Shown here in pieces: positions 8,061 to 54,961 of a stretch of 64,000 nucleotides of DNA (positions are counted from its first letter, which is position 1; every line of letters starts with the position of its first letter). Both the position numbers and the translations under genes were made by a program. The notes beneath the pieces were generated by a model. It made no database searches and was not told the origin of the DNA. It worked only from the letters and a program-made list of their open reading frames with translations. The stretch is from Myxococcus stipitatus. Lineage in GTDB: Bacteria > Myxococcota > Myxococcia > Myxococcales > Myxococcaceae. The DNA is taken from contig NZ_CP147913.1 of assembly GCF_037414475.1 (NCBI RefSeq), positions 1,550,001 to 1,614,000 on the forward strand, in the 5' to 3' direction.

Positions 8061-8564
8061 CTATTCGTCTGGCCCCGAGGGGTCCAGCGAAGCTTCACCC
8101 AGCAACTGCTGGATGACGTCCTCGGAGAATCCACGGCCTGACAGGAGGCGTGCGGCCCGGGCCCACGACTTCCCGTCGAGTGGCCGGACAGTCAGCCCTC
8201 GCTTCTCCAGCACCCCGCGGGCGGCGGCCAGGGCGTCGAACTCCACGGTGCCGCTGGCGGCCTCCAGGGCATCGCGAGCCTCGTCCTCGGAGAGGCCGTG
8301 GGCCTCCAGGCGCTGGAGGACGGCCCCTGGGCCCTTGCCCCCTCTCAACAGGGCGGCGGCACGCTCGTGGCCGAAGCGGGCATCATCGAGGTAGCCCCAG
8401 CCCTCGAGTCGGGACAGGGCCTGCTCTCGCACGGTGGAGGCGAAGCCCTTCTTCTCCAGGGCCTGGAGCAGCTCATGGCGGGTGCGGGCACGAGCGGCCA
8501 GCAGCTTGAGCCCGGCATCCGTGGCGCGCTGGACGGCCGCTGGCCCTTCATCCTCCGAGAGCAT
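8061..8564 (-). CDS. recX: Regulatory protein RecX
   Basis: 167 residues, the usual size. Three-helix repeats typical of RecX are visible: LKLLAARARTRHELLQALEK, DDARFGHERAAALLRGGKGP and ARAARLLSGRGFSEDVIQQL. RecX caps RecA filaments and limits strand exchange. The ATG at 8564 begins MLSEDEGPAAVQRATD. Open frame continues upstream for hundreds of codons, but that part is antisense to the gene at 8599 and to the repeat array and does not look like protein. recA is not adjacent. bamD follows after 10 bp. Confidence 0.9.
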   Translation of the reverse strand: MLSEDEGPAAVQRATDAGLKLLAARARTRHELLQALEKKGFASTVREQALSRLEGWGYLDDARFGHERAAALLRGGKGPGAVLQRLEAHGLSEDEARDALEAASGTVEFDALAAARGVLEKRGLTVRPLDGKSWARAARLLSGRGFSEDVIQQLLGEASLDPSGPDE

Positions 8565-8598
8565 GGCGGGATACCTAGCATGTGGTAACAGGCCCCGC

Positions 8599-9336
8599 AT
8601 GCACCCAGTCCTCGCCCGCTTCCTGGCCGCCGATGTCGCGAAGGAGACGCTCCGCAAGCAACAGGCGGGCGGCTCGCTCACTCCCGAGGAGAAGGCCTTC
8701 GCCGAGGCGGCCAAGGCCCATCCGCGCCAGGCCTCCATCCTGATGGACGTGGGGGGGCGCGTGTTGTCCTCGGATGCACAGGCCGCGCTCGTGCTGCTGG
8801 CGGCACATGCCTCCGCGAGGGCGCTGCTCGAGGACACCGAGCTGAGCGAGCCCGCTCGCAAGGCCCGCGAGGCGCTGGCCGAGGAAGGCGCGAGCGAGGA
8901 GGAGACGGACGCGTTCATCGCCTCCATCCTCCTGGAGGAGGCGTTCGGGTACGAGCAGGACGTGGACACGTTCGACCGCGAATACGTGCGGGAGTCGCTG
9001 GGTGAGGTGCCCGCGCTGGCGGCGCTCACGAAGGAGGCGGTGGACGCGCTCTTCCTGAGCTTCGTGAAGGGCGCGGCGAACGATGCGGAGCGGAAGGTGC
9101 GTGAGGGCATGGCGCGTGCCCTGTTCGACATCGCCTGGGCCGAGGGCCCCGCGCCCATCAACCCCGAGCACATCGAGGCCCTGCTGGACGCGGAGGTCGC
9201 CGACAAGCCCGAGGAGGAGCAGGAGGCGAAGGTGCACGCCACCGCGCATCTGCTCCAGGCCCTGTCCCGTGAAGGCTTGATGGGGCCCCTGCGCCTGTCC
9301 CGTCTGCGCGCCATGCTCGGCGAGGAAGACGCGTAG
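8599..9336 (+). CDS. Hypothetical acidic helical protein
   Basis: 245 residues starting MHPVLARFLAADVAKETLRK. The protein is Ala/Glu-rich and predicted helical throughout, with no signal peptide or membrane helix. Recognisable stretches include EEGASEEETDAFIASILLEE and GVAN-like ERKVREGMARALFDIAWAEG, suggesting a TerB-like or tellurite-resistance-like all-helical fold, but I cannot assign it. It is divergent from recX, with 34 bp between start codons, so the promoters must overlap. Codon third positions are strongly G/C as in its neighbours. Confidence 0.8.
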   Translation: MHPVLARFLAADVAKETLRKQQAGGSLTPEEKAFAEAAKAHPRQASILMDVGGRVLSSDAQAALVLLAAHASARALLEDTELSEPARKAREALAEEGASEEETDAFIASILLEEAFGYEQDVDTFDREYVRESLGEVPALAALTKEAVDALFLSFVKGAANDAERKVREGMARALFDIAWAEGPAPINPEHIEALLDAEVADKPEEEQEAKVHATAHLLQALSREGLMGPLRLSRLRAMLGEEDA

Positions 9337-10051
9337 CAAGGCAGTGCGCCCGCGTAAGCTGGCTCTGCGGTGGAGTGGCTCCCCGGAAGCATGGGCCTGG
9401 ACTCATTCCTCGTCGCGGGCCCGCGCAGGCTGGTTCTGCGGTGGAGTGGCTCCCCGAAGGCATGGCCTGGACTCGTGCCTCTTCGCGGACTTGCACTCGC
9501 GGGCCCTGGGTGAGCGAACCAGACCCATGCCTCTTCGCTGGCCCGCGCGAGAGGGCTCTTCGGCGGAGTGGCTCCCCGGCGGCGTGGGCTCGACTCGTGC
9601 CTCGTCGCGGGCCTGCACTCGCCGGCCCTGGCTGAGTGCTCCCCCATGCCTCTTCGCTGGCCCGCGCGAGAGGGCTCTTCGGCGGAGTGGCTCCCCGGCG
9701 GCGTGGGCTCGACTCGTGCCTCGTCGCGGGCCTGCACTCGCCGGCCCTGGCTGAGTGCCCCCCATGACTCTTCGCTGGCCCGAGTGAGCAGCCTCTGCGG
9801 TGGAGTGGCCCCCCGGCGGCGTGGGCTGGACTTGTGCCTCGTCGCGGGCCTCAACTCGCGGGCCCCGCACCGGCAGGCATCAGGGGAGTGCGCCATCCCG
9901 TGCCTCTTCGCGGGCCCGCCCTCGCGGGCTCCCCCCTTCCCTCTTCGCGGGCCCGTGCTGAGGGCCCTGCGAGGCCATCCTTGGTGGATGCCCTCAGACC
10001 CACAGGCCGGGCGGTCTCACTTGCTCGCGAGACCAGCGCACCTCCGAACAC
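9337..10051. repeat. Degenerate tandem repeat array (~119-bp unit) between convergent genes
   Basis: There is no gene in these 715 bases. A unit anchored on CTGCGGTGGAGTGGCTCCCC, or CTTCGGCGGAGTGGCTCCCC, recurs with anchors at 9365, 9436, 9558, 9677 and 9795, followed by a very worn copy up to about 9975. The copies 9542-9660 and 9661-9779 are nearly identical at 119-bp spacing; the first step is only 71 bp. Each full unit holds two related halves built on GCCTCGTCGCGGGCCTGCACTC and GCCTCTTCGCTGGCCCGCGC. The minus strand stays open through the array, but only because the units are Arg/Ala/Pro-coding; no start, RBS or family likeness supports a protein. Confidence 0.8.
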
Positions 10052-53105: not shown

Positions 53106-53522
53106 GTGATTCGCCCGCTCGCCCTGTTCCTCGCGCTCACCCTTGGTGGATGCGCAACCCTATCCAAGAAATCCAACCTGGAAGAACTCAAGCCGGTGGT
53201 GGAGTCGTTCCACAAGGTCATCCGCTGGAAGGACTTCCGGACGGCGGCGCGCTTCATCGTCCCAGAGCGGCGCCAGGCCTTCACCCGTGCCCGGATGGCC
53301 CTCCAGGACGAGCGCGACCTGTCCATCAGCGACTACGAAATCGAGGAGGTCGTGATGTCGGACGACGGCACCCGCGCCGTGGTCCAGAGCCGCATCCAGT
53401 GGATGCGCCTGCCCTCCGCCACGGAGAACACCTCGCTGGTGAGCTCGGAGTTCGTCTACAAGGACGGGGCGTGGCTGCTGGAGCGCCAGGACGAAGGTCC
53501 GTTCGCGGACGAGCTGCGCTAG
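53106..53522 (+). CDS. Small lipoprotein
   Basis: 138 residues, GTG start. Signal MIRPLALFLALTLGGC with lipobox L-G-G-C (Cys16). The mature domain reads LEELKPVVESFHKVIRWKDF + RTAARFIVPERRQAF, then DLSISDYEIEEVVMSDDGTR and SSEFVYKDGAWLLERQD. That pattern of helix then beta sheet resembles NTF2/SnoaL-like folds of myxobacterial lipoproteins. Divergent from the giant TPR gene. The hairpin array starts 10 bp after its stop. Confidence 0.83.
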   Translation: MIRPLALFLALTLGGCATLSKKSNLEELKPVVESFHKVIRWKDFRTAARFIVPERRQAFTRARMALQDERDLSISDYEIEEVVMSDDGTRAVVQSRIQWMRLPSATENTSLVSSEFVYKDGAWLLERQDEGPFADELR

Positions 53523-53531
53523 GCTGCCCAA

Positions 53532-53744
53532 AAGAAACCGCCCACCGACTCGGGGCCGGCCGAGGCGGTGGGCGTCGGGAACTCCCCAATGGAGCGCCCT
53601 ACAAGAAACCGCCCATCGACTCGGGGCCGGCCGAGGCGATGGGCGTCGGGAACTCCCCCATGGAGTGCCCTACGAGAATCCGTCCACCGACTCGGGGCCG
53701 GCCGAGGCGGTGGACGTCGGGAGCCCCCCAATGGAGCGCCCTGA
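53532..53744. repeat. Three tandem 71-bp hairpin units with compensatory changes
   Basis: Units begin at 53532, 53603 and 53674. Each contains a 9-bp stem: CGCCCACCG/CGGTGGGCG, CGCCCATCG/CGATGGGCG and CGTCCACCG/CGGTGGACG (arms 53539-47/53566-74, 53610-18/53637-45, 53681-89/53708-16). Inside, CTCGG and CCGAG pair around GGCCGG, identical in all units. Two stem positions change, each with a matching change in the opposite arm. A 71-bp period breaks any reading frame, so it is not coding. Confidence 0.85.
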
Positions 53745-53953
53745 CATTTGGGCGGGGCGACGCTGATGACCAGGCCCGCGTCGCCGCGCGGTGATGCCTG
53801 GCCTTAGAGCAATGGCGATGCCACGCCGAGCCCCCGCCCCCGGGCCCACGTGTGCTCACGAAGATTCAAGGACTTGCGCTCGCGCCGCGCCGACATTCCC
53901 AGGGATGGAGCGTCGGGGCGCTGACACTGCTGTCATGGGGTCCAGCCTTCGGC

Positions 53954-53970
53954 GTCGCGCCAGACGCGAC
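53954..53970. terminator. Hairpin between convergent genes
   Basis: GTCGCG (53954-53959) and CGCGAC (53965-53970) form a perfect 6-bp stem around CCAGA. Nearby TGACA-CTGC-TGTCA (53922-53935) is a second small dyad. The rest of 53745-54002 shows no gene. Convergent lipoprotein and epimerase genes suggest a terminator role. Confidence 0.4.
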
Positions 53971-54002
53971 AGCTGTGTCAGGGACCCACGGACTTTCCCC
54001 TC

Positions 54003-54926
54003 TCAGTCCGCGAGGACGGCGCGGATGGTCTCCCGCATGGAGTGGCGGGGCTTCCAGGCCACGTCCTGGACCCAGCGGCTGCCATCCACGGCGCACAGGA
54101 ACTGGATGTGGTCCAGCTCCGGGGGCGGGAAGTTGGCGATGCGATACTTGAAGAGCATGCCCAACAGGGGCCGGGCCACCGGGTGGGGCACGGGGATGGG
54201 GGAGTTGCCCAGTTCGCGCATCACCGCGGACAGGGGCACCTCGCCGGGGCCCACGACGTTGTAGACGCCCTTGGGCTCCGGGCGGAGGGCGGCCACCATG
54301 GCGCGGGCGACGTCCTCCACGTGGATGAGCTGCACCATGGGGTCGAAGCCCGCCATCATCCACGGGTGGCGCAGGCGCAGGTAGTTGGACGGCGCATTCT
54401 TGATGGTGGGTCCGACGATGTGGACCGGCCGCAGAATCACCGTCTCGATGTGGGGGTGCTTCCAGAAGAAGCCATGCGCGAGCATGTCCACTTCAATCAA
54501 GTCCCGCACGCCGGAGAAGCGGCTGGCCGCCATGAGCGGCGCGTCCTCGGTGAGGAAGTTCGAGTTGTCGGGGCTGGGGCCGTAGACGTTGGCCGAGGAG
54601 AGGACCACGACCTTCTTCACGCCGTACTTCGCGCAGTACTCCAACAGGCGCGTGGTACCCACGACGTTGAACGAGTGGTGCTCCTCCTCGCTCATGCGCG
54701 GGTCATGCATGATGCCCATGTGGATGACGGCGCGGACCTCGTTCTTGCGAAAGACGTCCTCCGCCTTCTTCTTTCGCAAGTCGAGCTCGTACATCTCGAC
54801 ATCCTTCGGCCGGCCCGCGAAGGGACGCCGGTCGATGCCGATGATGCGCTCGTGCTTGTGCAGAAGCTTCGCGAGGGTGCGGCCGAGGTTGCCGCTGATG
54901 CCCGTGACGACGACGGCCGGTCTCAT
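54003..54926 (-). CDS. NAD-dependent epimerase/dehydratase-family (extended SDR) protein
   Basis: 307 residues. N-terminal VVVTGISGNLGRTLAKLLHK (NAD loop G-x-x-G-x-x-G), IIGIDRRPFAG, HMGIMHDPRM. The triad Ser appears in VVVLSSANVYGPSPDN, but the Y-x3-K position is not in a clear motif, so catalysis may be altered. Later segments IETVILRPVHIVGPTI and LIHVEDVARAMVAAL are family-typical. It may act on nucleotide sugars, given the glycan genes nearby. ATG 54926 used; TTG 54932 is possible. Confidence 0.85.
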   Translation of the reverse strand: MRPAVVVTGISGNLGRTLAKLLHKHERIIGIDRRPFAGRPKDVEMYELDLRKKKAEDVFRKNEVRAVIHMGIMHDPRMSEEEHHSFNVVGTTRLLEYCAKYGVKKVVVLSSANVYGPSPDNSNFLTEDAPLMAASRFSGVRDLIEVDMLAHGFFWKHPHIETVILRPVHIVGPTIKNAPSNYLRLRHPWMMAGFDPMVQLIHVEDVARAMVAALRPEPKGVYNVVGPGEVPLSAVMRELGNSPIPVPHPVARPLLGMLFKYRIANFPPPELDHIQFLCAVDGSRWVQDVAWKPRHSMRETIRAVLAD

Positions 54927-54961
54927 GGACAAAGCCTCTTAGCACCGAACGGATGAGCCGC

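Follow-up and report, generated by a model that had tools for sequence, protein, structure and literature searches.

What is the array of three 71-bp repeats that lies within the 64,000-nucleotide stretch of Myxococcus stipitatus DNA analysed here (the window), and which of its strands would do the work? The original prediction described "three exact 71-bp units" and offered, among other readings, a tandem small RNA or a DNA element of REP type. Judged from its sequence and that of its relatives, the array is very probably a minus-strand gene for a sigma-54-dependent non-coding regulatory RNA, whose modules have been amplified in Myxococcus. Tandem Repeats Finder places the array at 53532–53742, with a period of 71, 3.0 copies, 90% matches and zero indels; "exact" holds for the length of the units and not for their sequence.

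Read directly from the sequence, the main hairpin of unit 1 is as had been claimed: a stem formed by CGCCCACCG (53539–53547) with CGGTGGGCG (53566–53574), an A53548–G53565 mismatch, an inner CTCGG/CCGAG stem and a GGCCGG loop (53554–53559). The two compensated pairs – C53545–G53568 becoming T53616–A53639, and C53541–G53572 becoming T53683–A53714 – are likewise there, and units 1 and 2 do differ at four positions. Every unit folds more stably than nearly all its dinucleotide shuffles, the z values for the three units being −3.4, −4.8 and −2.0 (plus strand) and −3.4, −3.4 and −2.9 (minus strand). Three features had been missed: a second, smaller hairpin in each unit (53577–53599 in unit 1), which also covaries; the functional strand, predicted to be the minus strand; and the signals around the unit on that strand, a U-tract after it and, before it, a sigma-54 promoter at 53809–53823, beyond the coordinates first given (53532–53744). 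Elsewhere in the window, at 9348–9865, a further tandem array with 71-bp and 119-bp periods overlaps a 611-aa open reading frame (8061–9896, minus strand), although 71 is not divisible by 3.

The predicted functional strand of the array is the minus strand, on which each unit reads as hairpin A (9 bp, loop AUNGG), GA, hairpin B (9 bp, a mismatch, 5 bp, loop CCGGCC) and then a U-tract. The first-transcribed unit – unit 3 in the earlier numbering – occupies 53674–53744, with hairpin A at 53719–53741, hairpin B at 53681–53716 and a decayed U-tract; the second, with a weak U-tract, occupies 53603–53673 (hairpin A 53648–53670, hairpin B 53610–53645); and the last, formerly unit 1, lies at 53532–53602 (hairpin A 53577–53599, hairpin B 53539–53574). 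Ahead of them on the same strand is a leader hairpin (53756–53785), found in Myxococcus and at other long-leader loci, whose GGGCC loop is conserved in comparisons across those loci while its stem varies. Two plus-strand candidates were rejected, namely a terminator (there is no U-tract on that strand) and a small peptide (its ATG-like CCATNGG varies at N).

Evidence that the folded form is under selection, as had been proposed, comes from covariation, tabulated with one unit per locus across 44 loci of the Myxococcus family and two further families. In this table 98.0% of stem cells are paired, uncompensated stem changes – named at the outset as counting against the idea – are rare (2% of cells), and 11 of the 23 pairs have changed on both sides; cells with double changes number 89, against 26.8 ± 5.6 after shuffling. 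When the structures are slid by 1–3 columns, only 34–59% of cells pair, compared with the 98.0% of the true register. Units of the genus Myxococcus alone give 94.6% pairing and nine pairs with double changes (61 cells versus 15.0 ± 3.0 shuffled). The loops behave differently from the stems: both are nearly invariant across the 44 loci, and the CCGGCC loop with its flanking CGG/CCG is invariant while the stems of distant relatives are wholly different. Hairpin A of the second family has GG/CC in place of CC/GG at its apex and retains the loop AUUGG, and in the third family the stem of hairpin B is different around an unchanged CGGCCGGCCCCG centre. The comparison shows two types of constraint, on pairing in the stems and on sequence in the loops. 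Gene conversion between the arms, suggested earlier as another source of the compensated pairs, cannot account for so many independent double changes, of several pair types, at 11 of 23 pairs; stem changes in distant families with the loops kept exclude it as a general explanation.

How widely, and where, does the element occur? A DNA search gives a single locus in its own genome, and 95 of the 96 family genomes have a match, the one exception being a genome that is only 79% complete. A covariance model (R1) built from the 44 loci – the kind of search that had been recommended – recovered the array element in the same 95 family genomes, so that copies in other genomes are indeed present, and added six genomes of the same order, one belonging to a second family and five to a third. 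There was no R1 match at E ≤ 0.001 in the sampled rest of the class and phylum, and searches of plasmid and phage collections gave no match. Genera named in records that carry the element include Myxococcus, Pyxidicoccus, Corallococcus, Archangium, Hyalangium and Citreicoccus. Against the family model the last unit scores 94.4 bits, and the units of this genome range from 80 to 94 bits.

The same pair of genes flanks the element across the family. One is an NAD-dependent epimerase gene (54003–54932, minus strand; PF01370), a conserved neighbour upstream on the same strand; the other is a convergent 138-aa lipoprotein-like open reading frame (53106–53522, plus strand), which has no match in Pfam or NCBIfam and whose homologues flank the element throughout the family. 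Second, diverged copies occur in two genomes, one of which (L133; G001:C6:375226) keeps its own sigma-54 promoter and enhancer palindrome, while the other (L128; G138:C818) seems degenerate. Three genomes of family f8 (L130, L131 and L132) have, upstream of the element, a gene for a large FHA-domain protein, which in L132 also contains a cyclase domain. A record titled Comamonas sp. KCTC 72670 (L263; BNCN01000011.1) carries a three-unit array of Myxococcus type and is probably misnamed.

The putative promoter, TGGCAT-CGCCA-TTGC (53809–53823, minus strand), has the form TGGCAT-N5-TTGC of a −24/−12 element, and in 62 of the 66 assessable loci TGGCA-N6-T[TG]GC precedes the first unit at one of a few fixed spacings. 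Among the others, three (L057, L072 and L082) have a variant −24 box, TTGGCC-N5-TTGC, and one reads CGGCAT-N5-TTGC; upstream of the element at L130 no promoter was recognisable. The pattern TGGCAYN5TTGC matches 35 times in 721,788 strand-positions (40 loci), or about once per promoter. Further upstream, at 53865–53876 on the minus strand, lies CAAGTCCTTGAA (reverse strand TTCAAGGACTTG), which we take to be an IHF-like site by comparison with the IHF consensus. It is conserved at −53 in Myxococcus, and a strict pattern finds it in 51 of 63 loci, at −41/−42 (where it mostly lies in other genera) or −52 to −54, and once at −30, in steps of about one helical turn.

Two putative enhancer palindromes of the form CTGACA-N4-TGTCAG complete the region, both on the minus strand: CTGACACAGCTGTCGC (53966–53981; two mismatches), 158 nt upstream of the −24 box and in the same position in other Myxococcus genomes, and ATGACAGCAGTGTCAG (53921–53936; one mismatch), 113 nt upstream. 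Typically there are two copies, 45–46 bp apart, at −158/−113 in Myxococcus and at about −148/−102 in many others, and the palindrome with at most two mismatches is found in 57 of 62 loci compared with 24 of 3100 shuffles. Within the same limit of two mismatches it also precedes the −24 box by 91–127 nt at the non-syntenic copies L127, L129 and L132, at the second copy L133 and at L126, while L131 has it with three; L126, L127, L129 and L132 come from other families. This layout is, by its motifs, that of an enhancer-dependent sigma-54 promoter, with promoter and RNA linked as one unit. Exact TGACAN4TGTCA occurs at five places in the whole M. stipitatus genome, and a regulon search with the exact palindrome found no sigma-54 promoter near any of the four other places; nor was an activator gene found among the neighbours of the array or of the non-syntenic loci examined. 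Elsewhere, a TGACA-N4-TGTCA palindrome without a sigma-54 promoter separates a gene for an OmpR-type response regulator from a porin-like gene (L235, around position 1500). Several Myxococcus genomes (L203, L211, L214, L218, L220, L229 and L230, around position 1500) share yet another conserved sigma-54 promoter, the third, which has the same IHF-like site and stands ahead of a short sequence resembling an ORF, ..MRKA.DM.ERGRKAA.LARFFRQQPDRIAALWRRMR...

Together with the covariation, the conserved promoter supports the earlier reading of the array as a tandem small RNA. The predicted transcript, about 270 nt long (53529–53798, minus strand), is placed by rule, with its start about 11 nt after the −12 box and its end at the U-tract GGUUUCUUUU (53529–53538, minus strand), which turns hairpin B of the last unit into a predicted intrinsic terminator. 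The folding energy of this RNA is −151.5 kcal/mol (z −3.6). Its minimum-energy fold pairs unit 1 with unit 3, a pairing that need not occur during transcription if, as we assume, the local hairpins form first.

How the modules multiplied can be followed within the genus. The element is tandem in 27 of 27 Myxococcus-group genomes, with two units in 15, three in 11 and four in one; L031 has one unit with a mutated core, and outside the genus Myxococcus a single unit is found. In 25 of 26 cases the nearest relative of a last unit is the last unit of another genome, which dates the duplication to before the species diverged and means that each position has kept its identity. In single and last units, hairpin B and the U-tract behind it make an intrinsic terminator at the 3′ end. 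The mean length of the longest T run behind hairpin B is 7.4 nt for single units, 3.9 for last units and 2.5 for internal ones; the last U-tract in Myxococcus (UUUCUUUU) is weaker than that of other genera. The decay of the U-tract in internal units only suggests one read-through transcript, and we infer that polymerase would mostly read through to the last unit, with partial termination possible at the internal ones.

Our proposed mechanism would run as follows. An enhancer-binding activator would bind one or two of the CTGACA-N4-TGTCAG sites, IHF would bend the DNA, and sigma-54 RNA polymerase would start near 53798. The ancestral RNA would have been some 80–90 nt long, a short leader being followed by hairpins A (loop AUNGG) and B (loop CCGGCC), the second of which would serve with its U-tract as terminator. 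In Myxococcus, before the species split, the A+B module would have been duplicated, giving two to four modules per transcript, and with the decay of the internal U-tracts polymerase would read through to the last one. Because the stems are kept by pairing and the loops by sequence, the RNA would most likely act in trans through its loops, either titrating a protein with them, in the way of CrcZ and GlmY, or presenting them to partner RNAs.

Of these two modes of action, base pairing – in which the leader or loops would regulate mRNAs in trans and extra modules would supply more copies of the seed – has a chance that we place a little below even. The RNA has the size and terminator typical of an sRNA, and pxr, another sRNA of these bacteria that sigma-54 drives, is believed to regulate genes in this manner (PMC5568312, PMC11928866); yet CCGGCC is a short loop with little specificity where the genome is GC-rich, even the 12-mer CGGCCGGCCCCG being found at nine other places in the M. 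stipitatus genome, and most of the RNA is locked in very stable stems. A decoy, which refines the main explanation, is a possibility that we advance more tentatively: the AUNGG and CCGGCC loops would titrate an RNA-binding protein, in the manner of CsrB or CrcZ, and the additional Myxococcus modules would raise capacity per transcript. The sequence conservation of the loops beside paired stems and the multiplication of modules inside one transcript fit this idea, and since known sigma-54/IHF-driven RNAs include the decoys CrcZ (PMC8395346) and GlmY (PMC6075780), a decoy role is plausible by analogy, with base pairing about as likely. However, no cognate protein is known, Hfq is reported to be absent from myxobacteria (PMC5684412), the loops differ from the CsrA motif ANGGA, and a single module suffices in most genera. 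Bolder still, and in our estimate rather unlikely, is a scheme for an undescribed, nearly universal Myxococcaceae regulatory RNA whose dose per transcript would be set by module number, weak internal terminators releasing a one- to four-module ladder from a single sigma-54 start; the RNA would then be a tunable decoy in organisms from which Hfq is reportedly absent.

It is very improbable that the array is only a set of terminators, serving the epimerase gene or separating the convergent genes without an sRNA of its own. Hairpin B with its U-tract is a standard terminator, found 260–470 nt past the stop codon of the epimerase gene and immediately ahead of the convergent lipoprotein gene, but a sigma-54 promoter that is conserved, together with an IHF-like site and enhancer palindromes, stands between the epimerase gene and the hairpins, copies at other loci have the same enhancer and promoter, the internal U-tracts have decayed, and terminators need neither invariant loops nor a second covarying hairpin. 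A REP-type mobile or repeated element, or a protein-bound DNA hairpin, would suit the palindromic, tandem and GC-rich character of the array, but copy-number searches, which found essentially one locus in each genome, always flanked by the same pair of genes, reject the former, and with a U-tract on one strand only and a sigma-54 promoter present the whole class of explanation is left with hardly any probability.

The regulatory RNA gene that we prefer can be set against known systems. No Rfam 15 family scores above its gathering threshold at the locus; the best, ncS035 (RF02870), reaches 18.8 bits against a gathering threshold of 79, a chance-level score. CrcZ/CrcY of Pseudomonas share an RpoN promoter, an enhancer-binding activator (CbrB), IHF and repeated motifs within one RNA (PMC8395346), but are unrelated in sequence, and CrcZ exposes A-rich Hfq motifs where the element has structured hairpin modules. 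Enterobacterial GlmY, which sequesters a protein, also combines a sigma-54 promoter with upstream enhancer palindromes and IHF (PMC6075780); its sequence too is unrelated, its QseF sites read TGT-N12-ACA, and glmY adjoins its activator genes whereas the element does not. NrsZ of Pseudomonas, an sRNA that likewise depends on sigma-54, has a transcript of about 226 nt (PMC8395346), but it is controlled by NtrC and processed, with no sequence relationship seen. Decoys of the CsrB/RsmZ type carry multiple hairpins with ANGGA loops, unlike the AUNGG and CCGGCC loops found here, and REP/BIME sequences with a RAYT transposase form many dispersed copies, unlike an element with essentially one locus per genome.

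A further comparison is with Pxr, which gates fruiting-body development and is the myxobacterial sRNA on which the literature found concentrates. Both have a sigma-54 promoter (TGGCA-N6-[CT]TGC in pxr) and an IHF-like site at a similar distance, 41 nt upstream of the −24 box in pxr, and pxr likewise has stem-loops, is intergenic, is confined to the same bacterial group and is tandem in some genera (PMC5568312). The element is nevertheless not pxr: located through its published primer-derived sequence and its NtrC-type neighbour, pxr lies at 3.109 Mb of the same genome beside that regulator, whereas the element, between epimerase and lipoprotein genes, is not next to pxrR (nla19, MXAN_1078), as pxr would be. 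With the element model pxr scores a background 14.1 bits, under a 15.5-bit match elsewhere in the same 3 kb. Its upstream palindrome is ATTTCAG..CTGAAAT, a different enhancer from CTGACAN4TGTCAG, which occurs (≤2 mismatches) in only 1 of 32 pxr upstream regions. A shared activator was rejected as well, the motif common to both being the IHF-type site on the other strand (WTCARNNNSTTR), while the true palindromes differ. Tandem pxr copies are reported to have their own promoter each, whereas the modules of the element repeat within one transcript. In genera g3 and g7 (L186, L187, L188 and L193), pxr has 3–5 tandem copies about 300 nt apart, in agreement with the published Cystobacter paralogues.

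The assignment of the element as a structured sigma-54-dependent sRNA gene is, on these predicted features, strongly supported, and so, very well, is its standing as a new sigma-54-dependent sRNA family of a known kind, which the M. xanthus ncRNA survey (Whitworth & Swain 2020) may list. What is unusual about it is its near-universality in the family and its internal tandem amplification in Myxococcus. The rigid, recognisable promoter makes the activator and its signal findable, and the natural series from one to four modules – single in other genera, amplified in Myxococcus – offers a test of how sRNA dosage or valency evolves where Hfq is reportedly missing. Beside Pxr, the element would be a second sigma-54-driven myxobacterial sRNA, detected in 95 of 96 family genomes compared with 83 of 96 for pxr (E ≤ 1e-6, by a less sensitive DNA search).
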